Source: Chondrosia reniformis (lineage: Eukaryota; Porifera; Demospongiae; Chondrillida; Chondrillidae). Taken from it: 64,000 nucleotides of DNA. Location: NCBI GenBank assembly GCA_947172415.1, contig OX359202.1:3012001-3076000 (forward strand), in the 5' to 3' direction. Position 1 is the stretch's first letter; each line of letters opens with the position of its first letter. Shown one piece after another: positions 24,093-56,304 of the stretch. Under the pieces are notes generated by a model. That model made no database searches, had not been told where the DNA came from, and worked only from the letters and a program-made list of their open reading frames with translations. A program made the position numbers and the translations under genes.

Positions 24093-24317
24093 TAGTTGTT
24101 TTATGTACTAGTTACTAGTTGTATGAACTAGATATACTATAAAGGAGCTGGGTCACAGGATCAGGGCTGAGACCGGAGAGCCACGCTCCTTGTAGTTCCT
24201 GATGCAAGGTATTGCGGTGGCTGTCCAGTGGGGCAACACGGCCGCAGTGAGGGTCAACTCTCCCCCAACAGACAATGTTTTTATTTGACTATTTGACTAT
24301 TTAGATTGATTATCTAG
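24093..24317. other. Junction between the 13-bp and 250-bp satellites with a GC-rich unique piece
   Basis: 24093-24130 is a scrap of the 13-bp satellite in reverse orientation (TTATGTACTAGTTACTAGTT). 24131-24295 is clearly more GC-rich than anything near it. On the minus strand it is open for about 46 codons in one frame (begins IVCWGRVDPHC), which I do not recognise. It may be a fragment of a dispersed repeat or an exon remnant. Confidence 0.4.
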
Positions 24318-24913
24318 GTTGGGTCCTGAAAAAAGAAAAAAAAGCATACATCTTATAAATGTATTACATATCTTATATGTAATATATATTGTATATATCT
24401 TATATGCATATTATACATCTTATATATTGCATATATATGTAGAGTCAAAAGTGAGTGGTATACAAATAGGACTTCATTTACAACATATATTGTGGAACCC
24501 ACGTGACCGATGGTGTTACGGATGACATCGTCTGGATACAAGGTACAAGGATGCCCTCGTTCAATACCTGGTTGGTTCCTAAAAATAGAGAAAAAAGCAT
24601 ACATCCTATAAATGTATTGTATATCTTATATTTAATATATATTGTATGTATCCTATATGCATATTATATATCTTATATATTTCATATATATATAGAGTCA
24701 AAGGTGAGTGGCATATAAATAGGACTTAATTTACAACATATATTGTGGAACCCACGTGACCGATGGTGTTACGGATTACATCGCCTGGATACAAGGTACT
24801 AGGATGCCCTGGTTCAATACCAGGTTGAATACAGAAAAAAGAAAAAAATCATACATCTTATATACATATTATATATCTTATATGTAATATATATTGTATA
24901 TATCTTATATGCA
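24318..24913. repeat. 250-bp satellite, block 1
   Basis: First monomers of a satellite of about 250 bp. Each monomer has a conserved GC-richer core (TGACCGATGGTGTTACGG, then GATACAAGGTACGAGGATG, GGTTCAATACC, GGTCCTGAAAA) and an AT-rich remainder built on TATATCTTATATGCATATTA-like words. Monomers here read GCCCTCGTTC rather than GCCCTGGTTC, marking a local subfamily. Confidence 0.95.
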
Positions 24914-25061
24914 TGAAAAATCTAAGATACCATTTTCCTACATGCTATATGCCTATTCTGTAAAAAGAGCCTATAGGGGAACTAAACCTAAAGAGAGCTT
25001 TAGATGAAGATACAGTAGTCTTTTCTTCCTTCTTTTCCCTTCTTTCATCTTCTTCTCCTCT

Positions 25062-25107
25062 GGGTCAGACAGCCATTTCAGGGAATTCCACCCCTCATCA
25101 GTGATCC
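25062..25107 (-). ncRNA. Hammerhead ribozyme motif, second copy
   Basis: On the minus strand, CTGATGA lies at 25101-25095, GAAA at 25079-25076 and GTC at 25070-25068. Helix II is GGGG/CCCT around a TGGAATT loop, helix III is a minimal stem closed by GGCT, and helix I pairs ATCA with TGA. Compared with the copy at 10347, the loops and flanks differ slightly while all core boxes are kept. Confidence 0.75.
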
Positions 25108-25332
25108 TGGGAGTCTTTGTCTTTTTCTTTATCTTGATCTTCTGTGAATCCTTGGCTCACTATGCTAAATCTAGGGGCCTTATATACACTATTTTGGCGC
25201 CAAAAGTTAAATAAGGTGTTAACTAAGACACATGATGAAATTTAATTTTATGAATTAATTATAAATCTATTAGTAATCTTGCTTGTACAGGTAAAACAGA
25301 CTCAGCATAACTATAGACACAAGTGGGACATA

Positions 25333-25728
25333 TTACGTAAGTCTACCCTTAGGTCTTCTAGTAGTAACATTTCTTTGGAGGTGGGGTAACACAATATGGG
25401 GTAACACAAGACAGTCCTTAAGCATACTAGCTACTTTTTGCTTATACTTGATTCTAACTAGAGGCTGCCGGGTTAGGAAGGTTTTAAAGGTTGATTTTAG
25501 CTTAAAGTATTTGTAACCCTGCTTAATAAGCCTACTGCATAACAGCAAACTTTTAGCCTGAAAACTGGAGAAGTCACTACATATTCTAGAATACCTAATT
25601 AGTTGTGAAATAAAGACACCATAGGCTGGGGTATTAGGAATATTACTATCTAAATGGGGGAAATTTACTATATCAAAGTTAAAGTCCTCTCGCTTATCAT
25701 ATACTTTAGTGATAAATTGATTGTTAGT
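25333..25728 (-). pseudogene. C-terminal fragment of a reverse-transcriptase family protein
   Basis: About 130 codons remain. Recognisable words are YDKREDFNF, IVNFPHLDSNIP and PAYGVFISQLIRYSR, followed by a basic tail ending RRPKGRLT. This block is familiar as the region after the polymerase domain in a widespread family of metazoan reverse-transcriptase repeat proteins. The catalytic part is absent, and I see no GIY-YIG endonuclease motif after it. The PLE assignment rests mainly on the downstream hammerhead-bearing terminal unit. It is a fossil with no expected function. Confidence 0.6.
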
Positions 25729-27443
25729 ATAATATATCTTATATATTGCATATATATGTAGAGTTAAAAGTGAGTGGTATACAAATAGGACTTCATTTAC
25801 AACATATATTATGGAACCCACGTGACCGATGGTGTTACAGATGACATCCTCTGGATACAAGGTACATGGATGCCCTCGTTCAATACCTGGTCGGTTCCTG
25901 AAAAAAGAGAAAAAAGCATACATCTTATATATGTATTGTATATCTTATATGTAATATATATTGTATGTATCTTATATGCATATTTTATATCTTATATATT
26001 TCATATATATGTAGAGTCAAAAGTGAGTGGCATATAAATAGGACTTCATTTACAACATATATTGTGGAACCCACGTGACCGATGGTGTTACGGATTACAT
26101 CGCCTGGATACAAGGTACGAGGATGCCCTGGTACAATACCAGGTTGAATCCTGAAAAAAGAAAAAAAATGCATCTTATATATATATTATATATCTTATAT
26201 GTAATATATATTGTATATATCTTATATTCATATTACATTTCTTATATATTGCATATATATGTAGAGTGAAAAGTGAGTGGTATATAAATAGGACCTCATT
26301 TACAACATATATTGTGGAACCACATGACCGATGGTGTTACGGATGACATCGTCTGGATACAAGGTACGAGAATGCCCTGGTTCAATACCAGATTGGGTCC
26401 TGAAAGAAGGAAAAAAGCATACATCTTATATATGTATTATATATCTTATATGTAATATATATTGTATATATCTTATATGCATATTATATATCTTATATAT
26501 TGCATATATATGTAGAGTCAAAAGTGAGTGGTATATAAATAGGACTTCATTTACAACATATATTGTGGAACCCACGTGACCGATGGTGTTACGGATGACA
26601 TCGTCTGGATACAAGGTACGAGGATGCCCTGGTTCAATACCAGGTAGGGTCCTGAAAAAAGAAAAAAACATAAATCTTATATATGTATTATATATCTTAT
26701 ATGTAATATATATTGTATATATCATATATGCATATTATATATCTTAAATATTGCATATATATGTAGAGTCAAAAGTGAGTGGTATATAAATAGGACTTCA
26801 TTTACGACATATATTGTGGAACCCACGTGACAAATGGTGTTACGGATAACATCGTCTGGATACAAGGTATGAGGATGCCCTGGTTCAATACCAGGTTGGG
26901 TCCTGAAAAAAGAAAAAAAGCATTCATCTTATATATGTATTATATATCTTATATGTAATATATATTGTATATATCTTATATGCATATTATATATCTTATA
27001 TATTGCATATATATGTAGAGTCAAAAGTGGGTGGTACATTAATAGGACTTCATTTACGATATATATTGTGGAACCCACGTGACTGATGGTGGTACGGATG
27101 ATATCGTCTGGATACAAGGTACGAGGATGCCCTGGCTCAATACCTGGTTGGGTCCTGAAAAAAGAAAAAAGCATTCATCTTATATATGTATTTTATATTT
27201 AGTGTGTAATATATATTGTATATATCTTATATGTATATTATAAATCTTATATATTGCATATATACGCCGAGTCAAAAGTGAGTGGTATATAAAAGGACTT
27301 CATTTACAACATATATTGTGGAACCCACGTGACCGATGGTGTTACAGATGACATCGTCTGGATACACGGTACGAGGATGCCCTGGTTAAATACCAAGTTG
27401 GGTCCTGAAAAAGGAAAAAAGCATACATCTTATATATGTATTA
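25729..27443. repeat. 250-bp satellite, block 2
   Basis: About seven monomers. In most of them the sequence CCTGG-TTCAATA-CCAGG forms a five-pair stem with a seven-base loop, exactly the geometry of a tRNA T-arm. Many monomers read open in one minus-strand frame for about 80 codons because the period is near a multiple of three. The same holds in other frames, so I do not regard these as genes. Confidence 0.95.
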
Positions 27444-27644
27444 TACCGTAAGTCGGGTAATTTTCGTTGTTAAATATTGTCGTGGTTCACTCAAACCACG
27501 AAGATTTATTACGCGAAATTTATTTAACAACGAATAATAACGCGTTTTACAATATCGTGGTAACCCCCAGACCACGAAAATATTTTAATACGAAAATTTT
27601 ACCGAAGAAAATTTCCGAAAACGAAAATTTCCCGAACTACGGTA
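27444..27644. mobile_element. 201-bp MITE, TACCGTA ends
   Basis: Interrupts a 250-bp satellite monomer. The left end is TACCGTAAGTCGGGTAATTT and the right end is its imperfect inverse, ending TTTCCCGAACTACGGTA. The interior is rich in ACGAAAATTTT-like words in both orientations and has no convincing ORF. Elements with TACCGTA ends and CGAAAATTT interiors are common small repeats in some invertebrate genomes; that comparison is from memory. Confidence 0.7.
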
Positions 27645-29860
27645 TGTTTTCTTTGTAATATATATTGTAGATATCTTATATCCATATTATATATGTAGAG
27701 TCAAAAGTGAGTGGTATATAAATAGGACTTCATTAACGATATATACTGCGTGACCGATAGTGTTACAGATGATATCTTCTGGATACAAGGTACTAGGATG
27801 CCCTGGTTCAATACCAGGTTGGGTCCTGAAAAATTAAAAAAAGCATACATCTTATATATGTATTATAAATCTTATATGTAATATATATTGTATATATCTT
27901 ATATGCATATTCTATATCTTATATATTGCATATATATGTTGAGTTAAAAGTGAGTAGCATATAAATAGGACTACATTTACAACATATATTGTGGAACCCA
28001 TGTGACCGATGGTGTTACGGATGACATCGTATGGATACAAGGTACGATAATGCCCTAGTTCCATACCAGGTTGGGTCCTGAAAAAAGAAAAAAGCATACA
28101 TCTTATATATTTATTATATATCTTATATGTAATATATATTGTATATATCTTATATGCATATTATATATCTTATATATTGCATATATATATAGACTCAAAA
28201 GTGACTGGTATATAAATAGGACTTCATTTACGACATATATTGTGGAACCCACGTGACCGATGGTGTTACGGATGACATCGTCTGGATACAAGGTACGAAG
28301 ATGCCCTGGTTCAATACCAGGTTGGGTCCTGAAAAAAGAAAAAAGCCTACATCTTATATATGTATTATATATCTATATGATATATATTGTATATATCTTA
28401 TAATCATAAATATATCTCATATAATGCATATATATGTAGAGTCAATACTGAGTGGTATATAAATAGGACTTCATTTACAACATTTATTAGATGACCCACG
28501 TGACCGATGGTGTTACGGATGACATCGTCTGGATACAAGGTACGAGAATGCCCAGGTTCAATACTGGGTTGGGTAATGAAAAATGAAAAAAGCATGCATC
28601 TTATATATGTATTATATATATATGTAATATATATTGTATATATCTTATATGCATATTCTATATCTTATATATTGCATATATATGTTGAGTTAAAAGTGAG
28701 TGGTATATAAATAGGACTTCATTTGCAACATATATTGTGGAACCCATATGACCGATGGTGTTACGGATGACATCGTGTGGATACAAGGTACGATAATGCC
28801 CTGGTTCCATACCAGGTTAGGTCCTGAAAAAGAAAAAAGCATACATCTTATATATGTATTATATGACTTATATGTAATGTCTATTGTATATATCTTATAT
28901 GCATATTATTTATCTTATATATTGCTTATATACGTACAGTCAAAAGTGAGTGGTATATAAATAGGACTTCATTTACGACATATATTGTGGAACCCACGTG
29001 ACCGATGGTATTAAGGATGACATCGTCTGGATACCAGGTACGAGGATACCCTCGCTCAATACCTGGTTGTGTCCTGAAAGAAAAAGCCTACATCTTATAT
29101 ATGTATTATATATTTTATATGTAATATATATTGTTTATATCTTATATGCATATTATATATCTTATATATTGCATATATACGTAGAGTCAAAAGTGAGTGG
29201 TATATAAATAGGACTTCATTTACGACATATATTGTGGAACACACGTGACCGATGGTATTAAGGATGACATCGTCTGGATACAAGGTAGGAGGATGCCCTG
29301 GTTCAATACCAGATTGGGTCCTGAAAAAAAAAGTATACACCTTATATATGTATTATATATCTATATTTTATATATTTTATATGCATATTATATATCTTAT
29401 ATATTGCATATATAAGTAGAGTCAAAAGTGAGTGGTATATAAACAGGACTTCATTTACAACATATATTGTGGAACCCACGTGACCGATGGTGTTACGGAT
29501 GACATCGTCTGGATACAAGGTACGAGGATGCCCTGGTTCAATACCAGGTTAGGTCCTGAAAAAGAAAAAAAGCATACATCTTATATATGCATTATATATC
29601 TATATGTAATATATATTGTATATATCTTATATGCATATTATATATCTTATATATGGCATATATATGTAGAGTAAAAGTGAGTGGTATATAAACAGGACTT
29701 CATTTAGAACATATATTGTGGAACCCACTTGACCGATAGTGTTACGGATGACATCGTCCGGATACAAGATACGACGATACCCTGGTTCAATACCAGTTTG
29801 GGTCCTGAAAAAAGAAAAAACATACATCTTAAATATGTATTATATATTTAATGTGTAATA
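27645..29860. repeat. 250-bp satellite, block 3
   Basis: About nine monomers with more length variation than elsewhere: several copies are shortened in the AT-rich half. The block ends in TTTAATGTGTAATA at the insertion of the DNA transposon derivative at 29861. Confidence 0.95.
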
Positions 29861-31325
29861 TAGTGCATTTCACCATAAATGTAAAATTTCCAAGTGTATA
29901 GTGGGGTTCAAAATAGGGCGACAAAAGTGATTAATGTTAAAAGTGAGTCTTTTTCAACCTTGCCACCAAAATAATTAGGATCTAGGAACCATGGAAATGG
30001 CAAGAAAAATTGCGACATTCGTTGCTATGGCAAAATTTCGATTGCGCAATCGTGAAGAAGAAAGGCAGCAGTTAAAAATAAAAGTGATAGGTGCTTGTTG
30101 AAGAAGAAACAGAGAAGACCAAAACGCTGGCTTCTGGCAGCCCTTGTAAACACTCAAAAACTTAAGTAGCTTTTTTTTAATAGGACATTTTATCAGAAAG
30201 TTATTGCGTGTTTCCATATTTCCGTACCTTGACGGCTTTTCATCGGCAATCCTTTCAAGTTAGTCTAATGGATACAGACTTTTAGTATAAGAATATTTAA
30301 GAAATATACTAAATCTTTAAGTAGCTTTTTTGTAAGTTTCGCTCTGTGTGATGAGATATAAAGGTTTGAATTTTCAAAGTCTATTTAACAACACTTTCAA
30401 CAACTAATGAAGTACAGTTATCTTTTAAAGAATCCTATAGATTCTAGCCTTCGTATGTGTCCATTCACAGCAATATTTTTAACACTCAGATAGTAATTTT
30501 AACTTACTAGACTTTTTTGGGGATAAAATTTAACTGAAAAGTGGGGTTAATATAGACAACCACTAATAATTTTCATTTGACATTTTTTGCCAATTATGAC
30601 TCCTCGAGATTCACATACAACTAGGCAGTAACAGTCTTTAAAGGCAGTATTTACTTTTTTACCTTCTGGCTCAAATGATAAAAACATTTGAAAGCACATT
30701 TTTCTAATCAAATAATCTTGCCTTTTCAGACCTCTTTTGCCTTTTACCCAGTCTTGAGGCGGGGAAGGAGTACTACTCGGTGGTATGCCTTAATCAACTG
30801 TGCTACAACCGCTTTCCTCAGTCATTCGTTCACTGCATAGTTCCTCGTTATCACGATTGCCGACTTCGGCCGATTCTCTGTCGATTTCTGACATACTTTC
30901 CCACTTTAAAAGCTTTTTAGTCTTTAAATCGCCTTAGCTATTATAGCTTGACCTTCGAATAAAGCGTTATTAATGTAACAAGCATATACGCCTCTAAAAA
31001 GCTTAAAATATGTAAGTGTTTATTTGTTTATTTTTAGACATTCATTTTTCGATAATGGTTATACGCGGGAACGTTGCGTTGTAACTCGATTTCACCTTAT
31101 TAATTATGCAAACGGGACTGAATGAAGCCATTTAATTGGCTGAAATAGGTAACCTCTTTCAGTAACGCATATCTTCTAAACAATAGCTGCTATTGAAAAA
31201 CCGAAAACAGGTACGGATTCCCTAGTGTTTCCTCTTTCATTTGATACCAAATTTAAAAATATACTGTGGAGACTTTCCATAAAGCGCCTTAAAAGAGAAT
31301 TTTACATTTATAGTGAAATGCACTA
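29861..31325 (-). mobile_element. Non-autonomous DNA transposon, Tc1/mariner-like group, long derivative
   Basis: Bounded by TAGTGCATTTCACC at the left and its inverse at the right; the first 28 bases of the two ends differ at one position. TA at each border matches a TA target duplication. Near the right end on the minus strand is a remnant of the transposase first exon (start at 30894, beginning MSEIDRESAE), comparable to MSEIDQNTAE in the full-length element at 32065. A stop follows soon and no catalytic region remains. It is therefore an internally deleted copy of a sister family, moved in trans. Confidence 0.8.
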
Positions 31326-32064
31326 TATATATTGTATATATCTTATATGCATATTATATATCTATATATATTGCATATATATGTAGAGTCAAAAGTGAGT
31401 GGTATATAAATAGAACTTCATTTACAACATATATTGTGGAACCCACGTGACCGATGGTGTTACGGATGATATCGTCAGGATACAAGGTACGACGATGCCC
31501 TGGTTCAATACCAGGTTGGGTCCTGAAAAACGAAAAAAGCATGCATCTTATATATGTATTATATATCTATATGTAATATATATTGTATATATCTTATATG
31601 CATATTATATATCTTATATATTGCATATATATGTAGAGTCAAAAGTGAGTGGTATATAAATAGGACTTAATTTACAACATATATTGTGGAACCCACGTGA
31701 CCGATGGTATTAAGGATGACATCGTCTGGATACAAGGTACGAGGATGCCCTGGTTCAATACCAGATTGGGTCCTGAAAAAAAAGCATACATCTTATATAT
31801 GTTTTAACAGTCTATATTTTATATATCTTCTTTGCATATTATATATCTTATATATTGAATATATATGTCGAGTCAAAGTGAGTGGTATATAAACAGGACT
31901 TCATTTAGAACATATATTGTGGAACCCACGTGACCGATGGTGTTACGGATGACATCGTCAGGATACCAGATACGACGATTCCCTGGTTCAATACCAGGTT
32001 GGGTCCTAAAAAAAGAAAAAAACATACATCTTATATTTGTACTATATATTTAATGTGTAATATA
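31326..32064. repeat. 250-bp satellite, block 4
   Basis: About three monomers between two transposons. Both neighbouring insertions lie at the same place in the monomer (after TTAATGTGTAATATA and before TTGTATATATC). Confidence 0.95.
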
Positions 32065-35000
32065 TAGTGCATTTCAACATAAATGACATATTTTTAAGCT
32101 TGTAGTGTACTTCAATATAGGCTGACAAAACCAATTAATTTGAAAGTAGTGTCATTTTGAACCATGGAAGCCGAATTAACATTAATCCAAAACCTAGGAA
32201 ACGGCCATAAAAAATGCATGATTGGTTGCTAACGGTAACAGCAGTTGCGCAAGACCTGAAGAGGAAAAATTTGACAAGGAGATAAAACTTCGTTCTTTAA
32301 CTCTTAGTGGAAGAAGGTACGTTTACTAAACGCCACATATAGTTGAATAAGTATATTGTCTAAGTATTTAAACCGAGAATTAGTTGACTTCTCCTCGGAT
32401 TAATAAAAAAATACTGAAAGTTGGTTTTATCGTGTCTTCACCATAAGGGAATTTCTTGGGCTTTTGACTTAGCCGATCATCACAGCCATTAGATATTTAT
32501 TTTGTTATAGTGATATCCTAAAACTTGTCGCATTTAAATTTTTACTTTCTCTTCTAAGATGAGAAATATGCAACCTTGTTTTATTTACGGCGGTGAACTT
32601 TATGTAGTGCGTTTGGGAATTTTGTGAGACAGTGCTCTAGTTCCTGGTCTTAGATCTTTGTTAGGCTATTTTTAAAGGATCATGCTAAACCTTACCGCAT
32701 CGCTTTTCTAGAAATTTTGTTCTGGAATGGAGATATCACATCTTAAATTTGGAATGCCGCTTTTCCATGTCAATAAAGTGAGAGGTGATGTTGCCCTTCT
32801 GTCTACATAAGAAAGCCGTGTTAATTTAATAATTCCCTAGGAGAGCTTTCTACAAGTTTTCTAGTAATGTTAGAAGTTAAGATTCACGGTTTAGTCTTTT
32901 CTTAGAAGTGACACTAATAATAATATTAAAGCAAATTTGAGTATCAAGCTAGGTGTTATGTAAACTTTGTGGTATTAATGTATGTTATTAATTTTTATTG
33001 ATTTATCCTTTATTTATGATAACTTTGATGAAAAATAGATTAAGCTTCACTGCTAGGGGCCTTCCTGTGGGACGTGTACTGTTTGACCTTAATATCAGCA
33101 TCTCTTCCACTTTTCTCTCCCTCAATGTAGGCACGGTTGTAGTTGCGACACTTCCGGAAGTATTTTCTAATGAGGTCCAAAGAGACAGAGTCCAAAGCAG
33201 CTGGCGCAGTATCTTTAAGTCCAGTCAAGGTGTAGTCACAGTGGGCTCTGGCAAATTGTTTTGCTTTGGCCCAGCAGCACTCAATCGGATTGAGCTCAGG
33301 ATGGAACTACATACACAGATAAGTTAAACTCATCCATGAGTATACGTATATCTATATAGGTGTATACTTATATGATAGCCTCTTCTAAGAAAAATGTCAC
33401 TAAATTTCATATATACCTTGGGATTGAAAAGGTATCTGTGATTTTTTGCCTCCAAATAAGTCTGAACGCTACTCTTTTCAAACTTGAAATCTGGATACTC
33501 CTGGAGCCTCTTTACCATTTCAGACCTATTTAAATGATCTGTCCTAACACCGCGTTCCCTTAGGACAATTTCAAGCCCTTTAGGGGTACCATCCTGGAAA
33601 ACCATTGGCTGGGGAGTTCCATCTGGAAGTTTCCCAGGGTGCATCTTGGGTTGTTTCCCACCAGGCTTCATATTCATCCTATTGGCCACCAGTGCATCTT
33701 CTGCAAATGCAAGATGTCCGCTGCTATGATCAAATATCCATGCTAGCTCATAGAAGGTGACTGGATATTTGAACTCGGCAATGCGTACAGCTTTTCGAAC
33801 ATTTCTTAAAAACTTTTCACCATCCCAATACCCATCTTTTTGAAATTCTAAGATTTCCCTTGCTTCCCTTGGAAAACTAGGGAAATCTTTTCTTGCTTCT
33901 TTCAATTCATCATCAGACAAGCCAAGATAACCTCCATGCTCCTCAATGAAATCGCTGACCATCAGTCCTTTTCCTTTCCCCTTAGGTCGTATGGCTCCAG
34001 AACCCGTTGCATCCACCCATACAGAACTTTGTGCATCATTTGCATTAAACACTGTTTCATCGTGATAAATCAGGACTAGGTGGCGAGATTTTGAAGGATC
34101 ACCTGGAAATAGGTAAGTTCTGATGAATTCTGCATACAGTATTGTTCTGCTGTTTTTGCATGCAACTCATACCTGAATTCCAAGATGGTATGCCATCTTC
34201 ACATAATGGTGGAGGCAAGTGAGATGATTCAAGGGCTTTGATCTTCTTCAGAAAACTCTTTCTGTATTCCACTACATCTGGCCGATCGTGGCCATCGGCA
34301 TAGCCTTGACGATACGGTCTTCTACTAAGTCCTAAGTTCTTCATATAACGGTATGCAGAATATTCACTTATTTTCTTTGAAAAGCCCTCTGGTAAAGTAA
34401 GACTTGTGATGTAGTCGTTAAACCAAATCTGAAACTTGGAACTTGTCAAGGAATATTTAGGGTCGTGAACCTTTTCTCTTAGCCACTTGATGGACTTTCG
34501 AGTTATATCTTCCTGGTGTAATATCGATGGCCTGTAATTATATGGTACATTGCCAAGGGAAAAAATGAATGGTCTGTATGTTTCAATATTGTCAATGTTG
34601 CGTGGCTATACTGTTGATATTCCATATTTGAAGCTGATTACATAATATGTATATATGTAGATTTCGTATTCATATTAATGTGATTGCATAAGTATAATTG
34701 CCAGTCCTGCAGTGATGAATATGGTTATTGGTTACCTAGCATGTTTTCCTCGTTTATCATCTGATATCTGACCCTTTTCATAGTAGTATTCCCTATGCCA
34801 CCTGGAAATGGAGCTGCTGCTGATTCCTAGAGCTTCGGCTGTGCTTCTTGTGGACTCACTTCTGCTCATTGAGTGACTATGATGAAGATGATCATAAACC
34901 AGGACACCTAGTTGCTTTTTGTCTATCAATGGTAAGGATGTTACCCAATTTTGTGCTAACGACTGTGCCTGCCTATATGTAAACTCTCCATCACTTTCAG

Positions 35001-36023
35001 TGTCACTTCCCTGGAGCAGAATTGCAGGATGTGTGGAGAGTTTAATGCTTATATTCTGTTATTTTTAAAAGAACTTGTAATGTAATGTAATAATTTAACA
35101 TTAAGTGCATGATTGCATTGTGCAGTTGTCACCTCTTGTTCAGATGATGATGAATCTGAACTTGATGCATCTTCTAAAATAGGTAAGAGGAGTGATTCAT
35201 CACCAGTATTAGCCACCAGTGGATCTTCGGTCAAGCTGAGTGTTAGATCAGACTCGTTTTCTACAAAACCATTAATTTTATATTTGGAACTCTAGCACCT
35301 CTAAAAAGGATGATGATAGATAGATGTAGAGATAAGGTTTATTGTACCTTCTTCAGAATTTTCTATAAGGCTGGGTTGTGAAGTTTGCCACCTCTTCAAA
35401 GCCAGTAGTCTACCTTGTTTTTTGCTGAATTTGCCAAGCTTCTTCCTTTTGCTGTGGCTCGAATCGAAAGAGTATTCAAATCTTTTAGTGGTAGAAGTCC
35501 TTTTCGGCCTACTAGAACATGCTTGGTCTAGTTCCATGCTATTATCTTTGCGATTACCGATTTCGGCCGTATTTTGGTCGATTTCTGACATACCCGTACT
35601 GAAAATAAGCTTTTACGATTTTAAAACGCATCTGCTTTTATAGCTGCACTCTCGAAAGAAGCGTTGCCAAGGAAAAATGCTTAGTTATTGTAAAAAAGCC
35701 TAATATGTATACGCATTTGCTTTTTCTCTTAGCGACCACCATCTTGTGATCAAGGTAACACGCGTGTAACATACGAGGTAACTCCTTCGTGACCTCATTA
35801 GTTATGCAAAAATGACCGAATACTGCAATTTCATTGGCTGAAACAGGTGGTCCCTTTCAAAGAGCTGTAACTCGGCGTATCTCCAACATTTTCGAAATCC
35901 GAAAAAAGATACCAATGCCTTTATGATTATTCTTTAATTTGATACCAAAATCGTTTAAATTTAGTCTAAAATACATCTAAAGCGACTTGGTATAAAATTT
36001 GTCATTTTTGGTGAAATGCACTA
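32065..36023 (-). mobile_element. Full-length DDE transposon, Tc1/mariner-like, 3.96 kb
   Basis: Terminal inverted repeats begin TAGTGCATTTCAACATAAAT on the left and TAGTGCATTTCACCAAAAAT on the right (reverse complement), flanked by TA. Inside is one complete, intron-containing transposase gene on the minus strand. About 970 bp between the left end and the gene's stop codon is non-coding, AT-rich sequence that partly aligns with the same region of the elements at 29861 and 49230. The element interrupts a 250-bp satellite monomer cleanly. Nothing visible prevents expression, so it may be a recently active copy. Confidence 0.85.
33040..35591 (-). CDS. DDE transposase, six exons, apparently intact (652 aa)
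   Basis: Predicted exons (minus strand) are 35591-35348, 35260-35133, 35010-34736, 34531-34173, 34102-33417 and 33306-33040. Every intron begins GT and ends AG, and phases agree, giving 653 codons with the stop. Residues 28-60 are basic (RPKR, SKRKK) and could be a nuclear signal. Residues about 105-130 are acidic and serine-rich. Residues about 175-200 resemble a helix-turn-helix (STAEALGISSSSISRWHREY). The catalytic domain has D350 (LIYHDET), D460 (WIFDHSSGH) and E573 (FHPELNPIECCW), the DDE triad of the IS630-Tc1-mariner superfamily, with 112 residues between the second D and the E. The start is the first ATG of the open frame, and the same start word survives in the derivative at 30894. 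Similar proteins with VSDF and PKGxxxVLxERG motifs are known to me from fungi and invertebrates. Confidence 0.82.
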
Positions 36024-39000
36024 TATATTGTATATATCTTATATGCATATTATATATCTTATATATTGCATATATATGTAGAGTCAAAAGTGAGTGGTAT
36101 ATAAATAGGACTTCATTTACAACATATATTGTGGAACCCACGTGACTGATGGTGTTACGGGTAACATCGTCCGGATCAAGGAAAGAAAATGCCCTGGGTC
36201 AATACCAGGTTGGGCCCTGAAAAAAGAAAAAAAGCATACATCTTATATATGTATTATATATCTATGTGTAATATATATTGTATATATCTTATATGCATAT
36301 TATATATCTTATATATTGCATATATATGTAGAGTCAAAAGTGAGTGGTATATAAATAGGACTGAATTTACAACATATATTGTGGAACCCACGTGACCGAT
36401 GGTGTTACGGGTAACATCGTCCGGATACAAGGAAAGAAAATGCCCTGGGTCAATACCAGGTTGGGTCCAGAAAAAAGAAAAAAAGCATACATCTTATATA
36501 TGTATTATATATCTATGTGTAATATATATTGTATATATATTATATGCATATTATATACCTTATATATTGCATATATATGTAGAGTCAAAAGTGAGTGGTA
36601 TATAAAAGGACTTCATTTACAACATATATTGTGGAACCCACGTGACCGATGGTGTTACGGATGACATCGTCTGTATACAAGATACGAGGTTGCTCTGGTT
36701 AAATACCAGGTTGGGTCCTGAGAAAAAAAGCCTACATCTTATATATGTATCATATATCTATATGAAATATATATTGTATATATCTTATATGCATAAAATA
36801 TATCTCACTTATTGCATATATATGTAGCGTCAAAAGTGAGTGGTATATAAATAGGACTTCATTTACAATATACATTGGATAATCGATGGTGTTACGGATG
36901 ACATCGTCTGGATACAAGGTACGAGAATGCCCTAGTTCAATACCGGGTTGGTCCTGAAAAAAGAAAAAAGCATACATCTTATATATGTATTATATATCTT
37001 ATATGTAATATATATTCTATATATCTTATATGCATATCATATATCTTATATATTGCATATATATGTAGAGTCAAAAGTGACTGGTATATAAAAAGGACCT
37101 TATTTACAACATATATTGGGTGAGCAACGTGACCGATGGTGTTACGGATGACATTGTCTGGATACAAGGTACGAGGATGCCCTGGTTCAATACCAGGTTG
37201 GGTCCTGAAAAAAGAAAAAACATACATCTTATATATGTATTATATATCTTATATGTAACATATATTGTATATATCTTATATGCATATTATATATCTTATA
37301 TATTGCATATATATGTAGAGTCAAAAGGGAGTGGTATATAAATAGGACTTTATTTACAACATATATTGTTGAACCCACATGACCGATTGTGTTACGAATG
37401 ACATCTTCTGGATACAAGGTACGAGGATGCCCTCGTTCAATAATTGGTTGGGTCCTGAAAAAAGAAAAACAGCAGACATCTTGTATATGTATTATATATC
37501 TTATATGTAATAGATATTGTATATATCTTATATGCATATTATATATTTTATATATTGCATATATATGTAGAGTAAAATGTGAGTGGTATATAAATAGGAC
37601 TTCATTTACAACATATATTGTGGAACCCACGTGACCGATGGTGTTACGGATGACATCTTCTGGATACAAGGTACGAGGATGCCCTAGTTCAATAATTGGT
37701 TGGGTCCTGAAAAAAGAAAAAAAAGCATTCATCTTGTATATGTATTATATATCTTATATGTAATATATATTGTATATATCTTATATGCATATAATATTTT
37801 TTATATATTGCATATATATGTAGAGTCAAAAGTGAGTGGTATATAAATAGGAATTCATTTACAACATATATTGTGGAACCCATGTGACCGATGGTGTTAC
37901 GGATGACATCGTCTGGATACAAGGTACGAGGATGCCCTGGTTCAATAATTGGTTTGGTCCTGAAAAACTAAGAAAAGCATACATCTAATATATGTATTAT
38001 ATATTTAATGTGTTATATATATTGTATATATCTTATATGCATATTATATATCTTATATATTGCATATATATGTAGAGTCAAAAGTTAGTGGTATATAAAT
38101 AGGACCTCATTTACAACATATATTGGGTGAGCAACGTGACCGATGGTGTTACGGATGACATCGTCTGGATACATGGTAGGAGAATGCCCTAGTTTAATAC
38201 CAGGTTGGGTCCTGAAAAAAGAAAAAAGCATACATCTAATATATGTATTATATATCTTATATGTAATATATATTGTATATATCTTATATGTAATATATAT
38301 TGTATATATCTTATATGCATATTATATGTCTTATATATTGCATATATATGTAGAGTCAAAAGTGAGTGGTATATAAATAGGAATTCATTTACAACATATA
38401 TTGTGGAACCCATGTGACAAATGGTGTTACGGATGACATCGTCTGGATACAAGGTACGGGAATGCCCTGGTTCAATACCAGGTTGGTTCCTGAAAAAAGA
38501 AAAAAACATACATCTTATATATGTATTATATATCTTATATCTAACATATATTGTATATATCTTATATGCATATTATATATCTTATATATTGCATATATAT
38601 ATAGAGTCAAAAGTGAGTGGTACATAAATAGGACTTCATTTACAACATATATTGTGGAACCCACGTGACAGATGGTGTTACGGATGACATCTTCTGAATA
38701 CAAGGTACGAGGATGCCCTCGTTCAATACCAAGTGTGTCCTGAAAAAAGAAAAAAGCATACATCTTATATATGTTTTATATATCTTATATGTAATATATA
38801 TTGTATATATCTTATATGCATATTATATATCTTATATATGGCATATATATATAGAGTCAAAAGTGGGTGGTACATTAATAGGACTTCATTTACGATATAT
38901 ATTGTGGAACCCATGTGACTGATGGTGTTACGGATGACATCGTCTGGATACAAGGTACGAGGATGCCCTGGTTCAATGCCAGGTTGGGTCCTGAAAAAAG

Positions 39001-42000
39001 AAAAAAGCATTCATCTTATATATTTATTTCATATTTAGTGTGTAATATGTATTGTATATATTTTATATGTATATTATAAATCTTATATATTGCATATATA
39101 TGTAGAGTCAAAAGTGAGTGGTATATAAAAGGACTTCATTTACAACATATATTGTGGAACCCACGTGACTGATGGTGTTACGGATGACATCGTCTGGATA
39201 CCAGGTACGAGGATGCCCTGGTTCAATGCCAGGTTGGGTCCTGAAAAAAGAAAAAAGCATTCATCTTATATATTTATTTTATATTTAGTGTGTAATATGT
39301 ATTGTATATATCTTATATGCATATTATATATCTTATATATTGCATATATATGTAGAGTCAAAAGTGGGTGGTACATTAATAGGACTTCATTTACGATATA
39401 TATTGTGGAACCCACGTGACTGATGGTGTTACGGATGACATCGTCTGGATACAAGGTACGAGGATGCCCTGGTTCAATGCCAGGTTGGGTCCTGAAAAAA
39501 GAAAAAAGCATTCATCTTATATATTTATTTTATATTTAGTGTGTAATATGTATTGTATATATCTTATATGTATATTATAAATCTTATATATTGCATATAT
39601 ATGTAGAGTCAAAAGTGAGTGGTATATAAAAGGACTTCATTTACAACATATATTGTGGAACCCACGTGACTGATGGTGTTACAGATGACATCGTCTGGAT
39701 ACAAGGTACGAGGATGCCCTTGTTCAATACCAGGTTGGGTCCTGAAAAAAGAAAAAAAGGCATACATCTTATATATGTATTATATATCTTATATGTAATA
39801 GATATTGTATATATCTTATATGCATATTATATATCTTATATATTGCATATATATGTAGAGTCAAAAGTGACTGGTATATAAATAGGAATTCATTTACAAC
39901 ATATATTGTGTAACCCATGTGACCGATGGTGTTACGGATGACATCGTCTGGATACAAGGTACGAGGATGCCCTGGTTCAATACCAGGTTGGGTCCTGAAA
40001 AAAGAAAAAACATACATCTTATATATGTATTATATATTTAATATGTAACATATATTGTATATGCATATTATATATCTTATATATTGCATATATATGCAGA
40101 GTCAAAAGTGAGTGGTACATAAATAGGAATTCATTTACAACATATATTGTTGAACCCACGTGACCGATGGTGTTACGGATGACATCGTCTGGATACAAGG
40201 TACGACGATGCCCTGGTTCAAAACCAGGTTGGGTCCTGGAAAAAGAAAAAGAGCATTCATCTTATATATGTATTTTATATTTAGTGTGAAATATATATTG
40301 TATATATCTTATATGTATATTATAAATCTTATATATTGCATATATATGTAGAGTCAAAAGTGAGTGGTATATAAAAGGACTTCATTTACAACATATATTG
40401 TGGAACCCACGTGACTGATGGTGTTACAGATGACATCGTCTGGATACACAGTACGAGAATGCCCCGGTTCAATACCAGGTTGGGTCCTGAAAAAAGAAAA
40501 AAAGCATGCATCTTATATATGTATTATATATCTAATATGTAATATATATTGTATATATCTTATATGCATATTATTTATCTTATATATTGTATATATATGT
40601 AGAGTCAAAAGGGAGTGGTATATAAATAGGACTTCATTTACAACATATATTGTTGAACCCACGTGACCGATGGTGTTGCGAATGGCATCTTCTGGATGCA
40701 AGGTACGAGGATGCCCTCGTTCAATAATTGGTTGGGTCCTGAAAAAAGAAAAAAAGCATACATCTTGTATATGTATTATATATCTTATATGTAATATATA
40801 TTGTATATATCTTATATGCATATTATAAATCTTATATATTGCATATATATGTAGAGTCAAAAGTGAGTGGTATATAAATAGGACTTCATTTATGTCGTAT
40901 ATTGTGGAACCCACGTGACCGATGGTGTTAAGGATGACATCGTCTGGCTACAAGGTACGAGAATGCCCTTGTTCAATACAAGATTGGATCCTGAAAAAAG
41001 AAAAAAAAGCATACATCTTATATTTGTATTATATATCTTATATGTAATATATATTGTATATATCTTATATGCATATTATATATTTTATATATTGCATATA
41101 TATGTAGAGTCAAATGTGAGTGGTATATAAATAGGAATTCATTTACAACATATATTGTGGAACCCATGTGACTGATGGTGTTACGGATGACATCGTCTGG
41201 ATACAAGGTACGAGGATGCCCTGGTTCAATACCAGGTTGGGTCCTGAAAAAAGAAAAAAAGCATACATCTTATATATGTATTATATATTTAACGTGAGAT
41301 ATATATTGTATATATCTTATATGCATAATATATATCTTATATACTGCATATATATGTAGAGTCAAAAGTTAGTGGTATATAAATAGGACCTCATTTACAA
41401 CATATATTTTGTGAGCAACGTGACCGATGGTGTTACGGATGACATCGTCTGGATATAAGGTACGAGAATGCCCTAGGTTAATACCAGGTTGGGTCCTGAA
41501 AAAAGAAAAAAGCATACATCTTATATATGTATTATATATCTTATATGTAATATATATATATTGTATATATCTTATATGCATATTATAAATCTTATATATT
41601 GCATATATATGTAGAGTCAAAAGTGGGTGGTACATTAATAGGACTTCATTTACGATATATATTGTGGAACCCACGTGACTGATGGTGTTACAGATGACAT
41701 CGTCTGGATACAAGGTACGAGGATGCCCTGGTTCAAAACCAGGTTGGGTCCTGGAAAAAGAAAAAGAGCATTCATCTTATATATGTATTTTATATTTAGT
41801 GTGAAATATATATTGTATATATCTTATATGTATATTATAAATCTTATATATTGCATATATATGTAGAGTCAAAAGTGAGTGGTATATAAAAGGACTTCAT
41901 TTACAACATATATTGTGGAACCCACGTGACTGATGGTGTTACAGATGACATCTTCTGGATACATGGTACGAGGATGCCCTGGTTCAATACCAGGTTGGGT

Positions 42001-42430
42001 CCTGAAAAAAGAAAAAAATGCATACATCTTATATATCTATTATATATCTTATATGTAATATAGATTGTATATATCTTATATGCATATTCTATATCTTATA
42101 TATTGCATATATATGTAGAGTCAAAAGTGAGTGGTATATAAATAGGAATTCATTTACAACAAATATTGTGGAACCTATGTGGCCAATGGTGTTATGGATG
42201 ACATCGTCTGGATACAAGGTACGAGAATGCCCTGGTTCAATACCAGGTTTGTTTCTGAAAAAATGAAAAAAGCCTACATCTTATATTTGTGTTATATATT
42301 TAATGTGTAATATATATTGTATATAACTTATATGCATATTATATATCTTATATATTGCATATATATGTAGAGTCAAAAGTGAGTGGCATATAAATAGGAC
42401 TTCATTTACGACATATATTGTGGAACCCAC
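36024..42430. repeat. 250-bp satellite, block 5
   Basis: The longest uninterrupted block, about 25 monomers. Subfamilies are visible: GCCCTGGTTCAATACCAGG, GTTCAATAATTGG (near 37440, 37690, 37940, 40720) and GTTCAATGCCAGG (near 38970, 39220, 39470). Pairs of unlike monomers alternate near 38.8-39.9 kb and 40.0-42.0 kb, suggesting a dimeric higher-order unit of about 500 bp. The array ends at GGAACCCAC (42430), where it joins the next satellite directly. Confidence 0.95.
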
Positions 42431-43658
42431 GATATATTCGGTAAAAGGATAGGATATATTGGGTAAAGACCATGGGATATAGTGGGCTTAAACGATAGCT
42501 TATATTATGGGATATATTTAGCAAAAATTATGGGAAATATTTGGAAAAATATAGGAAATATTTTGCAAAACTATGGGGAATATTCGGTTAAGACTATAGG
42601 TTATTTTATGGGATATATTCGGATAAACTAAGAGATATATAGGGCAAACATTATGGGATATATTATGGGATATATTGGTTAAAATTGATGTATATACTTG
42701 GCAAAACTATGGGATATACAGGTCAATTGGATATATTGAGCACAAACTAAGGGATATATTAGGCAAATTATAGGATATATTGGGAAAAGCTATGGAATAT
42801 ATTGGGAAAAGCTATAGGATATATTGGGAAAAGCTATGGGATATATTGGGCTGACTATAGGTTATTTAATAGGATATATTTGGAAAAACTATTGGATATA
42901 TTATGGAAAATTATAGGATATTTACAGTAACAATTATGGCATATACTATATGATAAATTTTTCTAAAGCTATGGGATTTATTTGACAAAACTAGGGGGTA
43001 TATTGGGTAAAACTATGGGATATATTATGGGATATTACTGGCCATTATTGGATATATTTGAAAAACTATTGGCAATATTCCAAAAAACTATGAGATATAT
43101 TGGGCAAAAACTATGGGATATATTGGGCCAAAATTATCGGATATATTACGGGATATATTGGTTAAAAGTTTAAGGATAAATTTGCCAAAACTACAGGATA
43201 TACTTGTCCATTGTATATTTTAAGCAAAACCTAAGGGATATATTAGGCCATTTTATGTGATAGATAGAGGAAAAATTTCGGGATAAACTATGGGATCTAT
43301 TTGTCTAAGGCCATGGGATATAATTGACAAAAATTAAGGGGCACATTGGGTAAAACCATGGGATATATAATTGAATATAATTGGCAATATTTTTAAATAA
43401 CTGGATATATAAAGCAAAAACTGAGGGATATATAAGGCGAAATTATGGGCTATATTTTGCAAACATTTTGGGATATATTTGCAAAACCTATGGTATGTAT
43501 TCGGAATATCTATCGGATAGATTGGGCTAAGACTATAGGTTATATTATGGGATATATTTGCCAAAAATTATGGGATATATATTTGTCAAAAACTAATGGG
43601 TATATTGGATAAAACTATGGGATATATTATGGGATATAATTGGGAATGTTTTAAATTA
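42431..43658. repeat. 23-bp satellite (GGGATATATTGGGCAAAA type), block 1
   Basis: Tandem variants of a unit of about 23 bp, such as GGGATATATTGGGCAAAA plus ACTAT. Marker variants (GGTCAATTGGATATATT near 42722, GTCCATTGTATATTTTAAGC near 43205) recur about 490 bp apart, showing a higher-order repeat. ORFs in this region are by-products of the repeat. Confidence 0.95.
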
Positions 43659-44519
43659 TAGTTCATCTAACCATGCAGTTAACAAATGTAGATATTACAC
43701 CAATAAGTGATGACAGGCGAAAAAAGTGACCAAAACACTCTTTGAAGCACTTTTAAATCATAAAATTGTCAAGAGGGTGTTTAGGCTAATATTTTTTATG
43801 CGAGTTGCGTTTCCATAGCGATGCATTGATTACGCAATTACATTTAGTAGAGGAAAAAGGAAATGTCTATTCTTTTGATTTTTAGAAATTTAGAGCTTTT
43901 GGGACAAATTTGTAAGTTGAATAAAGTATCAATTTATAGATAAGGCAGTCCTTTATAATCGCAAGTATACTTAAGCGATTCAAAAGAAAAAAAGAGAAGT
44001 TATTGACCTACATGCACTAAGCGGCGATTCTTTTAGTGAGAAATTTCTTTATAGCAAGAAGTTATATTATTGCCCATTTAGTGCTTTATTCTTTAGATAA
44101 TGATATTTAACAGATTCTGGAGTAGGTTTAAGTCGGTTTGTCACTTTTCCATGGTGATTTGAGCCGCAATATATTCATAAATATTTTTGGGTTAGTTCTC
44201 TTAGCTAATAGTTAGTGAATTGGCGATAAATGTGCTAAATTAGTGTTAGTTCAGCTTCTGAGATGTTTCTAAGTTCCATGCAATAAAATATTTTGTCCAT
44301 GTAGTAAATATTGATCTACGGAGAAGGAAAGAAATATAATAATGACTGTGATTTAGATGATCATGATTTTGACTTCATACCTTTAATTAGTAATGTACAA
44401 AATAAGTTCTATTTATTCTGTGATACTTTGCGGTGTGCCTTGTAGATCTTGACCTACAAAATTGACAACAAAACAACAATTAGTACTGTAGCTCACAAAA
44501 TGTAGGCAATTCAGCTAGA

Positions 44520-47120
44520 CTATATGAGTATACATATATGAAAGTATACGTATATGAACATGTTAATGTTTTTATATGAATACATTATTTTTTCCTGTTT
44601 ATCAGCTTTGCCTGTCATCATTCCTTCTATGTAGGCTTTATGATAATCGCAAACTTTTCGAAAGTATTGTCTAATCAGATCAACAGTGACAGATTCTAGG
44701 GCAATTGGCACAGTTTCCGTCAATCCATTCATTGTATAGTTACAGTTGGATCTTGCATATTGCTTGGCTTTACCCCAGCATCTCTCAATGGGGTTGAGCT
44801 CTGGGTGAAACTATACAGCAGAAGTAAGTAAGATACCATTAGATGCATATATACATACATTTACATGTATGTTGTAGGTTGTATATATTTGTGTAATGTA
44901 TATTCTTGTACCTTGGGAGAAAATAGACATCGATAATTTTTTGATTTCAAGTACGCTTCAACACTGCTGACTTCATTCTTAAAATCTTCGAATTGCTGAA
45001 GCTCACAAACCATATCAATCTTCACCATACCAGTGGTGTCCACACCCCTCTCTCGCAAAACCAGCTCCAACCCCTTAGGAGTGCCATTTGGTAGACACAT
45101 CTCCTGTAAATTGCCATTGGGTAATCTCCCATCCGGCATCACTGGCTGATTCCCACCTGGATTTACATTCTTTCGTGTGTCTACTAATGCGTTGTCATTA
45201 TATGCCTGGTGACCACTGCTGTGGTCAAAGATCCATACAAGATCATATTTTTCTCTTGGATACTTGAATTGGGCTATCATTGCTGCTGCTTTAATTTGAT
45301 TCATGAACTTAGCATTGTCCCAATAGCCATCTTTCTGATGTTCAGTAATCCTTCTGGCTTCCTTTGGGCAAAAGGGATATTCTCGTTGCACAGCTCTGTG
45401 CTCTTCATCGCGGAGATAGCCAGAAAACTCATCAATAAAATCACTTACCATAATACCCTGCCCTTTGCCTTTTGGTCGAACCTCACTACTACCACATGGA
45501 TCCACCCAAACTGATGGTTTGGCATCATAGGAATTACAAGTTGTCTCGTCATGATAGATTAATACCACATTTTTTGCCTTTGAATTGCTGCCCCTGTTCC
45601 ATGAGGGTATGTTGTCTTCACATGTGGGTGGAGGTAAATGGAATGCCTCCAAAATCCTTACCTTCTTTAAATACGGCTTTCTGTATTCTACCACGTCTTA
45701 CCTCTCATGGCCATCTGCGTAGCCCTGCTTGTATCGTCTGTGACTAAATCCTAACCTTTTCATATACCTAAAGGCAGTAGCTTCTGAAACATTCTTTTTA
45801 ATGGTATCTGGGAACTCCAGCTTTGGAAGATATTCATTTAACCATGTCTGAAATCTCTTGTGAGTCAGGTTGAATTTTCTGTAGTGAACTTTCTCCCTCA
45901 GCCATCTGACAGCTTTTCGGGGGACATCTTCTTGATCTAGTACAGTATCTCTTTTGTACATACCCCTTTCAGAAGTTGCAAATTCACCTCCATTTATACA
46001 GTATTGCCGTACCCATTTGTAGATGGTCTGTCTGGAATATCCCAATGCTAAACAGCACTCTGAGCTGCCTTGGTCTTGTCTGGTTCATACATCTTGTGCA
46101 AATGGTGATATAGCAGAACTGCTATTTTCTTAAGATCCCTTGATGGCATTGTCTTCATCCAATCAGTTAAATGAGGCACTGAATCATCTAAGTTGAAATC
46201 ATCCTCATCATTGCTACTGCTCTCTCCACTTTCAACTTCCTGTATATATATTAAAAAATACATTTTACATTTACAATTACTACTTATGGTGAAATCTCTA
46301 GTACTGTACTCGCCAGCCTGAAATTGGGCTGTTGGATTTGTTAATAAACAAAACGCTTTGACCCCAATCCAGGGGTCTTCATTAGTTGTAATGATCTGCG
46401 TAAAAGGCAAGCACTCTTTGGTACCCCTAGATTGGGGTCAGAACGTTTGGTTTATTAACAAATCCAATTGCCTGGCTAATGTAGTATCAGAGATTTCACC
46501 ATGTCAATACCTAGCCACACAGAAATCTTAAGAAATTATTACTTTTTCCATCCTATAGGACAAGTAAGCTCAGGATTCAAGATTCAACTGACATTTTCAT
46601 TTGTAACCTTATAAATCTATTTCAAATTATGTAATTTGTAAATTTGTACAAAATATGCATTGCATGTTCATGTGAGCTATATACTGAACATACACAGGCA
46701 AGTTAATAAAGAATTTTAATGTATATGGATGCATGTGGCCTGTAAACTAACTTCTGAATCAAGATCTGAAGTTGAGAAGGGAACATGTTGAAGTAACAAA
46801 CTCTCTTCTGCCTCCACACTTAAGCTGCTAGGTAGGTCATCTGGAGTGTTTTGCCATATGGGATGCTGGTTTGCAATGGGATTAGTACTAGCATGGAATA
46901 GGACTGTTGGTTGTGGATTCCAGCATTTATTTATGGCTTTATATCCTCGGGCAGAACGCTTTCTTTTGCCTTTCCATGGTGCTTGAGGTGAACTCAATTT
47001 TGAATTAATTGATTGACAACTGCTAGGTCCTGGAGTCGATTGCAGATGGCTTCGCAAAACCGAATTATCATGATGGCTGTCAGTATTGTTTCTTTCTTCC
47101 GTATTATCAGACTTGGTGAG
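44520..47120 (-). pseudogene. DDE transposase, three exons, inactivated
   Basis: Minus-strand exons are about 47120-46752, 46239-44912 and 44810-44520. Exon 2 encodes an acidic stretch, a helix-turn-helix (ALGYSRQTIYKWVRQY), KWLREKV-like and GYADGHER words, and then the catalytic core LIYHDET and WIFDHSSGH. Exon 3 has FHPELNPIERCW. The D-to-E spacing is again 112. Defects seen are no ATG where the related gene starts, a frameshift before the helix-turn-helix (near 46047) and an in-frame TAA after GHER (near 45695). The introns at the phase-0 E/E junction and before FHPELNPIE are shared with the intact relative; two others are absent. Confidence 0.75.
46290..46500. repeat. Palindromic insert in the first intron of the decayed transposon
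   Basis: Arms of about 90 bp (46290-46380 and about 46424-46500) pair imperfectly: GGATTTGTTAATAAAC faces GTTTATTAACAAATCC, and GACCCCAATCCAGGGG faces CCCCTAGATTGGGGTC. The loop is about 45 bp. It looks like a foldback MITE nested in the transposon, without an obvious target duplication. Confidence 0.6.
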
Positions 47121-47656
47121 CTTTTAAACACCTTAAGGATACTTATTAGAATTGTTACGCTATTGTGATAGTCAATATTTGCTTCGCAAGCTTTTCCAAA
47201 GATAAAAAAGCTTACGTATTTAAAGATCGTATAGTGCCTTAGTACAAAAAGCTTCAAAGCGCCTACCGCAATCGCAGGCCACTTTTATCTGAATGTTTAC
47301 ATTTTCTTTCAGAGGGTAACTAAAAGAAAACTCTGAATTTAATACTCTTTCTTAGCATTTAAAGCTGTACATAATACTAAAGTATTATCCTGCTTAACGC
47401 TGTATGCGTTATTGATGCATTATCACTAGTGTTATGCCTCATTATATACGCAAACGTGACAAACTTCTCAAATCTGATTCGCTAATATAGTGTGATTCCT
47501 TTCTCCCGAACGGAATGAGATACTTCAAATCCGAAAACATCATCTGAAAGGTGAATAAATTCTCTATCAAATGGAATATTATATGGTACCAACTATTGCT
47601 AACTTTAACCAGTTTGGCTTTAATGACATTTGGTAACTTTATGATGAAATGAACTA

Positions 47657-49229: not shown

Positions 49230-50302
49230 TAGTGCATTTCACCATAAATGTAAAATTTCTAAGTGTATAGTGGGGTTCAAAATAGTTCGACAAAAGTGAT
49301 TACTATTAAAACTGAGTCTTTTTCAAACTTGCCAACAAAATAATTATGCTGAAGTAACCATGGAAATGGCAAGAAAAATTACGACATTTGTTGCTATGGC
49401 AAAATTTCGATTGCGCAATCGTGAAGAAGAAAGGCAGCAGTTAAAGATAAAAGTGATCGTGCTTGTTGAAGAAGAAACAGAGAAGACCAAAACGCTGGCT
49501 TCTGGTAGCCCTTGTAAACACTCAAAAACCAAAGTAGCTTTTTTTAATAGGACATTTTATAAGAAAGTTATTGCGTGTTTCCATATTTCCGTACCTTGAC
49601 GGCTTTTAATCGGCACTTCGTTCAAGTTAGTCTAATCGATACAGACTTTTAGTATAAGAATATTTAAGAAATATACTAAATCTTTAAGTAGCCTTTTTGT
49701 AAGTTTCGCTCTGTGTGATTAGATATAAAGGTTTGAATTTTCACAGTCTATTTAACAACACTTTCAACAACTAATGAAGTATAGTTGTCTTGTAAAGAAT
49801 CCTATAGATTCTAGCCTTCGTATGTGTCCATTCACAGCAATATATGGCCGATTCTCTGTCGATTTCTGACATAATTTCCCACTTTAAAAGCTTTTTAGTC
49901 TTTAAATTGCCTTAGCTATTATAGCTTGACCTTCGAATAAAGCGTTATCAACGTAACAAGCGTATACGCCTCTAAAAAGCTTAAAATACGTAAGTGTTTA
50001 TTTGTTTATTTTTAGACATCCATTTTTCGATAATGGTCATACGCGGGAACGTTGCATTGTAATTCGATTTCACCTTATAATTATGCAAACGTGACTGAAT
50101 GTAGCCATTTGATCGGCTGAAATAGGTATCCTCTTTCAATAACGCCTATCTTCTAAACGATAGCTGCTATCGCAAAACTGAAAACAGTTACGGATTCCCT
50201 ATTGTTTCCTCTTTCATTTGATATCAAATTTAAAAATGTACTGGGGATTCTTTCCATGAAGCGCCTCAAAATAAAATTTTACATTTATAGTGAAATGTAC
50301 TA
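49230..50302 (-). mobile_element. Non-autonomous DNA transposon, short derivative
   Basis: Same terminal repeats (TAGTGCATTTCACC) and very similar sequence to 29861-31325, but lacking about 390 bp of its middle (between CACAGCAATAT and GGCCGATTCTC). TA flanks are present. The start of the transposase first exon is also present near 49870 on the minus strand, and nothing of the catalytic region. With the longer copy it shows stepwise internal deletion. Confidence 0.8.
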
Positions 50303-56290: not shown

Positions 56291-56304
56291 TAAATATAAT
56301 ATAA

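Follow-up and report, generated by a model that had tools for sequence, protein, structure and literature searches.

The 64,000-nucleotide stretch of contig OX359202.1 from the sponge Chondrosia reniformis analyzed here (positions 3,012,001 to 3,076,000 of assembly GCA_947172415.1; hereafter the window) contains a DDE transposon, element A, together with a second full-length relative, element B, and two internally deleted relatives (Table 1). A first-pass annotation had described an intact-looking six-exon DDE transposon at 32065-36023, with GT-AG intron borders, inverted ends, TA flanks and a catalytic triad of the DD112E type. The coordinates are correct, the gene lies on the minus strand, and the rebuilding of its six exons bears the description out: they join into an open frame of 652 codons, all five introns run from GT to AG, and the translation of the spliced frame places the triad at D350, D460 and E573. 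The first spacer of the triad thus has 109 residues and the second 112 (573-460-1).

Table 1. Element A, its parts and its relatives in the window (positions counted from the first letter of the window)
Feature	Position	Strand	Remarks
Element A, full-length DD112E transposon	32065..36023	-	3959 bp, terminal TAGTGC to GCACTA
Terminal inverted repeat of A, 3' side of gene	32065..32094	+	TAGTGCATTTCAACATAAATGACATATTTT
Terminal inverted repeat of A, 5' side of gene	35994..36023	-	TAGTGCATTTCACCAAAAATGACAAATTTT
TA target duplication of A, left	32063..32064	.	joined flanks equal satellite consensus
TA target duplication of A, right	36024..36025	.	joined flanks equal satellite consensus
A exon 1	35348..35591	-	ATG at 35591; basic stretch KRKK
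A exon 2	35133..35260	-	acidic, Ser-rich
A exon 3	34736..35010	-	putative helix-turn-helix region; similar to element B
A exon 4	34173..34531	-	leads to catalytic domain
A exon 5	33417..34102	-	catalytic D350 and D460, most of the 112-residue spacer
A exon 6	33040..33306	-	E573 within FHPELNPIE; stop codon at 33040
Element B, second full-length relative	43659..47656	-	ends TAGTTCAT; also DD112E; layout like A
Internally deleted nonautonomous relative	29861..31325	-	A-like ends
Second internally deleted relative	49230..50302	-	A-like ends, middle missing

Element A, its ends and its relatives in the window

The two ends of A are identical at 27 of 30 bases, both begin TAGTGCATTTCA and have TA on either side. 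A pattern for such ends, with up to three mismatches allowed, occurs five times in the window as against a mean of 0.00 over 100 shuffles. The joints between exons 3 and 4, 4 and 5, and 5 and 6 are supported because a single unbroken frame crosses all three in L001, a relative from a soil contig (see below); the first two are further supported by element B, which passes both in frame without introns, its stop codon sitting elsewhere. Intron 5 of A is retained in B. Exon 3 is recognizably shared between A and B, with none of 300 shuffles reaching the real similarity score.

Element B is damaged by one in-frame stop and by a frame break near 46049, and its product is 55% identical to that of A over 381 amino acids and 63% over a further 68. 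Across 412 aligned codons the two differ at 0.32, 0.25 and 0.56 of the first, second and third positions, respectively; the nonsynonymous divergence (dN, NG86 method) is 0.33, and for the synonymous divergence (dS) the method returned -1, which we read as saturation. This codon pattern fits selection at the protein level during most of the time since A and B split and says nothing on present activity. The first-pass annotation had also suggested that A is functional or recently active; its frame is open, but a blastn search with A found no near-identical second copy within the window. Between two coding stretches of B lies a palindrome of ~217 bases (46286-46502) with arms of 31 and 50 bases that are 81% and 88% complementary, probably a miniature transposon nested in an intron of B.

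The deleted copy at 29861-31325 resembles A only at the two ends of A (72.5% and 65.8% identity). The one at 49230-50302 is in turn 94.5% identical to it over 616 bases and 92.6% over 458, and its right end, TAGTACATTTC, falls outside the A-end pattern even with three mismatches. The two copies appear to be nonautonomous derivatives that belong to a third, related family.

The target duplication in satellite DNA

Element A and the deleted copy at 29861-31325 are both inserted in a satellite of ~250 bases (arrays at 24316-42431), at the same TA tract of its unit, and the copy at 49230-50302 is inserted in another satellite. Dozens of unfilled sister units act as empty sites and so reveal the target duplication with single-base precision. 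Once the elements are masked, n is 3 in 26 of the 27 TAA(TA)nTTG units found between 24 and 43 kb, 5 in the remaining one and 4 in none, a count that leaves out units with different letters at this place, such as TAATATGTATTG. In the other satellite, GGGA(TA)nTTTG has n=2 in 18 of 19 units and the looser GGGA(TA)nTT in 64 of 69. Excision of the element with both its terminal TA dinucleotides and one TA copy yields the exact satellite consensus for A and for both deleted copies (three of three). Because the joined flanks then restore this consensus, we read the duplication as TA and the start of the element as TAGTGC. The flanks of B permit a TA duplication as well, though the surrounding satellite is too variable to single it out.

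Two longer duplications were considered and rejected. A four-base TATA duplication for A and the deleted copies would require forms that occur in none of the 27 TAA(TA)nTTG units and in 1 of the 19 GGGA(TA)nTTTG units. In the case of a six-base TATATA duplication, inspection by eye finds only (TA)2 to the left of 29861-31325 before GTGC and only (TA)2 to the right of 49230-50302. Mboumar, from the ant Messor bouvieri, is an earlier example of a mariner element inside satellite DNA (PMC2581405).

Relatives outside the window and the Sailor-type elements

An exact-pattern scan of genome contigs for F-H-x-E-L-N-x-I-E-x-x-W recovered two contigs, L001 and L002, each encoding a relative of A. L001, from soil, carries a full-length relative at 212-2926 with an intronless frame of 709 amino acids, spacers of 105 and 129 residues (DD129E) and Cys residues within the insert. 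Its ends, TGGTGCATATCA and TGGTGCAACGCA, adjoin TA, and AC precedes TA at both sides. The A protein is 35% identical to that of L001 over 482 residues; with the pieces on L002, a sponge-associated contig, it shares 34% over 335 residues and 46% over 90. E-values for these identity alignments were computed against one or two subject sequences; searches of the whole assemblies give 6.3e-68 for L001 and 9.4e-42 for L002. Basidiomycete genomes are rich in long-spacer proteins that carry HDES...AND and Cys-rich motifs.

Both contigs carry prokaryotic labels. L001 is labelled as a soil archaeon and, because its protein matched only its own genome among 200 genomes of that archaeal phylum, we take it for a mis-binned eukaryotic contig. 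The assembly of L002 is labelled as a bacterial sponge symbiont; since the pieces on L002 are exon-like and a further match occurs on another contig of this assembly (E 6.6e-6), they appear to be DNA of the sponge host. A prokaryotic or phage origin was sought in phage, plasmid and archaeal-phylum sets, and none was found. L001 has no match at E <= 0.01 among plasmids and phages; a phage search with the open stretch around exon 5 of A, which includes some intron sequence, gives only E-values of 0.8 or weaker among the matches listed (20 of 38); and scans of viral contigs yielded neither a relative of A nor one of a Sailor core sequence.

A giant-virus likeness comes from structure. The best viral Foldseek match of the L001 model (E 2.9e-26) is the Sylvanvirus protein A0A3G5AK55, annotated as "Tc1-like transposase DDE domain-containing protein"; in this comparison, made by structure match only, it is 24% identical over 827 alignment columns, with a large root-mean-square deviation (rmsd) of 37.2. 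Relatives in Repbase, Dfam or the NCBI proteins may likewise bear generic Tc1-like labels. The first-pass annotation had suggested an undescribed or poorly described family. The family forms a clade of its own (see below) and is not unique to the source genome, given L001, L002 and, by structure match, the Sylvanvirus protein.

The nearest described elements appear to be those of the Sailor type. The Sailor description (PMC8533490) gives them as DD82E with a range from DD78E to DD111E, with 13- and 36-residue insertions in the second spacer, transposases of 323-676 amino acids, the motifs I/VVYLDET, VIIMDNA and HCELNPIEL, predominantly TATA target duplications, ends usually starting GT and CC, and hosts that include one species of Porifera. 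For direct comparison we used L007, a Sailor-like protein present in one of 369 genomes from the class to which the L002 assembly belongs (E 1.0e-51), nine others having partial matches only (best E 1.1e-7); as a query it matches eight of the 369, namely its own genome and seven with weak partial hits. The L007 contig has an unbroken Sailor-like DD83E transposase frame at 15-1385 (456 codons from stop to stop; spacers of 90 and 83 residues), followed by frames that look transposase-like by eye. With hhalign, a profile of A, L001 and B aligns to an L007 profile, which also contained one unverified Sailor row, at a probability of 98.6 and E 8.7e-16 in a one-profile search, with the triad aligned. 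A single-sequence blastp of L007 against A gives E 6e-14 in a three-sequence set.

In an 11-row tree, which contained one real Sailor-like row (L007) and one unverified one and left out pogo, Gambol and Tc1/mariner proper, the rows of A, B, L001 and L002 come together as a single clade (support 100/100). Sailor is its neighbor there, the two Sailor rows being joined to the clade at 97/96 and separated from five rows of the IS630 type. The latter come from five of ten loci that were checked for a reading frame containing the Glu motif; several are partial frames, and they owe their label to that motif. The join with Sailor stands at 96/95 after columns filled in fewer than 80% of the rows are dropped, and at 99/97 without the unverified row and the long-branched L013. 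In the third tree the clade itself has 100/99; its branch is long, at 1.27-1.5 changes per column.

Placement of element A

Element A, whose open spliced frame, triad, ends, TA duplication, homologues and clade are all read from the sequence, is very probably an autonomous-looking cut-and-paste transposon of the IS630-Tc1-mariner group, of the DD112E type, in a clade with B, L001 and L002 that neighbors the Sailor-type elements. It has three features of the group: a homologous RNase H-like DDE/D core, a TA duplication and terminal inverted repeats. The earlier designation of A as Tc1/mariner-like holds for membership in the group, A being nearer to Sailor-type than to IS630-type proteins among the rows of the tree, and fails for the spacing of Tc1/mariner proper. 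With the latter (Mos1, Sleeping Beauty) A shares the TA duplication and, through the L001 model, a fold match; PMC8533490 gives those elements a spacing of DD34-41 and the motif SPDLNPIE, whereas A has 112 and HPELNPIE, and B likewise has 112. The bacterial IS630 elements belong to the same group, and the best NCBIfam match of L001, over 603-657, is to an IS630 model (E 2.2e-8; at 33.9 bits, below the cut-off of 100). However, the five IS630-type rows lack the inserts and lie on the opposite side of the branch supported at 96-99%.

The fold comes from a low-confidence model of a relative. In the L001 model, a strand at 382-394 bears D389 and is followed by further strands, a helix at 466-484 and a strand at 488-495 that bears D495; a stretch with short helices (496-609) then leads to a strand at 610-614 and a helix at 623-638 that bears E625. 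With low to middling confidence, the model thus puts the extra residues after the strand that bears the second Asp and before the final strand of the core. Of its 178 Foldseek matches in the PDB at E <= 10, the seven at E <= 0.001 are all Mos1 chains (3.2e-5 to 1.7e-4), and two Sleeping Beauty chains (catalytic domain) match more weakly, at E 7.2e-3 with probability 1.00 and TMt 0.54-0.56.

Several results weigh against the placement of A as a transposase of this group. Profile searches of the 652-residue protein did recover DDE_3 in exon 6 (E 1.2e-5), but at 25.6 bits, under the curated cut-off of 28.6, and DDE_3 on L001 (27 bits) likewise stays under its cut-off, as do HTH_23 (E 5.6e-4) and other helix-turn-helix models on exon 3. 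Searched on its own, exon 5 has no match to any Pfam or NCBIfam family. By sequence, the best PDB match of A is Sleeping Beauty at a non-significant E of 0.35, and L001 and L007 find only unrelated chains, again without significance. The L001 model is weak, with a mean predicted local distance difference test (pLDDT) value of 55.5 and a predicted template modelling score (pTM) of 0.43, and in its matches to Mos1 the TM-scores are 0.13-0.25, with an rmsd of 17-23. The exon-5 fragment of A folded alone (pLDDT 62.4, without the half that carries the Glu) has no PDB match at E <= 0.001. To these is added the lack of similarity between A and B in exons 1-2, where 152 of 300 shuffles score as high as the real pair.

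Two further profile matches were noted. Phage_CII, likewise a helix-turn-helix protein, reaches 21.5 bits on exon 3 (cut-off 21.3) and stays under the cut-off on the whole A protein. Tox-HNH-EHHH on the exon-5-like stretch of B (18.5 bits, Pfam cut-off 25) is taken for a chance match.

It is highly improbable that the six-exon model joins open stretches that lie together by chance: the unbroken L001 frame spans its last three joints and B the first two of these. The absence of a homologue for exons 1-2 speaks for such an assembly, and in that part the model accordingly rests on frame and borders. It is also improbable, if slightly less so, that A is not a mobile element but a transposase gene that has been domesticated or has decayed. 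Such a gene could be suspected from the single intact copy in the window and the broken state of B; the matching ends, the TA duplication and the restored empty site are nevertheless the marks of a mobile element, and deleted relatives with A-like ends have been inserted as well.

A more serious contender, though still a rather unlikely one, is that A is nothing more than a Sailor (DD82E) element whose spacer is near the upper limit for that superfamily, with no separate clade. The first-pass annotation had set the spacer against roughly 34-41 residues in classical Tc1/mariner and about 82 in the longest animal family it considered. The 112 residues stand, but because PMC8533490 reports Sailor spacers up to 111, they are at the edge of a known range; a literature search for the labels DD109E to DD114E led to that paper alone, under DD111E. 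Sailor further shares with A the long second spacer, HxELNPIE at the Glu, a like transposase length, inverted ends and a catalytic domain alignable through L007; a Porifera host is on record; the Sailor rows are the nearest in the tree; and, with a single real Sailor-like row there, the clade may nest inside Sailor. Against this, A, B, L001 and L002 group apart on their long branch. Spacers of 109 and 112 in A (and a second spacer of 129 in L001) contrast with 90 and 83 in L007, A and B lying one residue past the range given for Sailor and L001 further outside it. Of the motifs in that description, only the third is close to those of A (LIYHDET, AWIFDHS and HPELNPIEC), and the clade has YHDET and FDHSS, FDNSS or FDNAP where Sailor has YLDET and MDNA. 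The separate clade and the duplication of TA, rather than the TATA reported for Sailor, are sharper differences than spacer length. A thus looks less like an entirely new kind of element than like an unusual variant, related to Sailor, in the IS630-Tc1-mariner group.

The two duplications may be less distinct than they seem. The string TATA followed by GTGC, in the Sailor style of writing, is identical to TA followed by TAGTGC, and the empty sites favor the second reading for the elements here. One possibility is that the TATA duplication of Sailor is itself a TA duplication plus a terminal TA borne by the element, as the satellite empty sites indicate in the present case; such sites make the question testable for Sailor-type elements.

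As a transposon of this clade, A would be expressed as a spliced transcript specifying the 652-residue transposase, whose predicted helix-turn-helix region would bind the element ends. Cleavage at these ends would be carried out by the RNase H-like core, in which D350, D460 and E573 would coordinate the metal ions; the ends would then be joined to a TA target so that the TA is duplicated. The stretch between D460 and E573 is predicted to contain an enlarged accessory insert ahead of the helix with the Glu, and deleted copies could be mobilized in trans. A bolder and tentative proposal is that the clade is a distinct superfamily-level branch of the IS630-Tc1-mariner group, derived from a Sailor-like ancestor whose core insert became larger still (DD112E to DD129E). 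Such a branch would be spread across the host of the window, sponge-associated DNA and a soil contig, and is hinted at in a giant virus. Element A would widen the range of insertions that a mariner-type catalytic core is known to tolerate, and it offers an apparently intact candidate for asking what such a core insert does.

Much of the remaining window is tandem-repeat DNA. A diverged 13-base repeat (about ACTAGTACATACA) forms long arrays at 1-24000 and 58057-58504, one of which covers ~17.6 kb (1133-18762). Minus-strand open stretches at 53265-56366 apparently represent a broken retroelement: a reverse transcriptase domain (RVT_1, E 1.2e-11) is present in one of four that were scanned, and the other three have no Pfam match at E <= 0.01. 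A 45-base tandem repeat occurs at 59595-60282 and 61880-62623, each array overlapping a Thr/Ser-rich minus-strand frame (216 and 214 codons, respectively).

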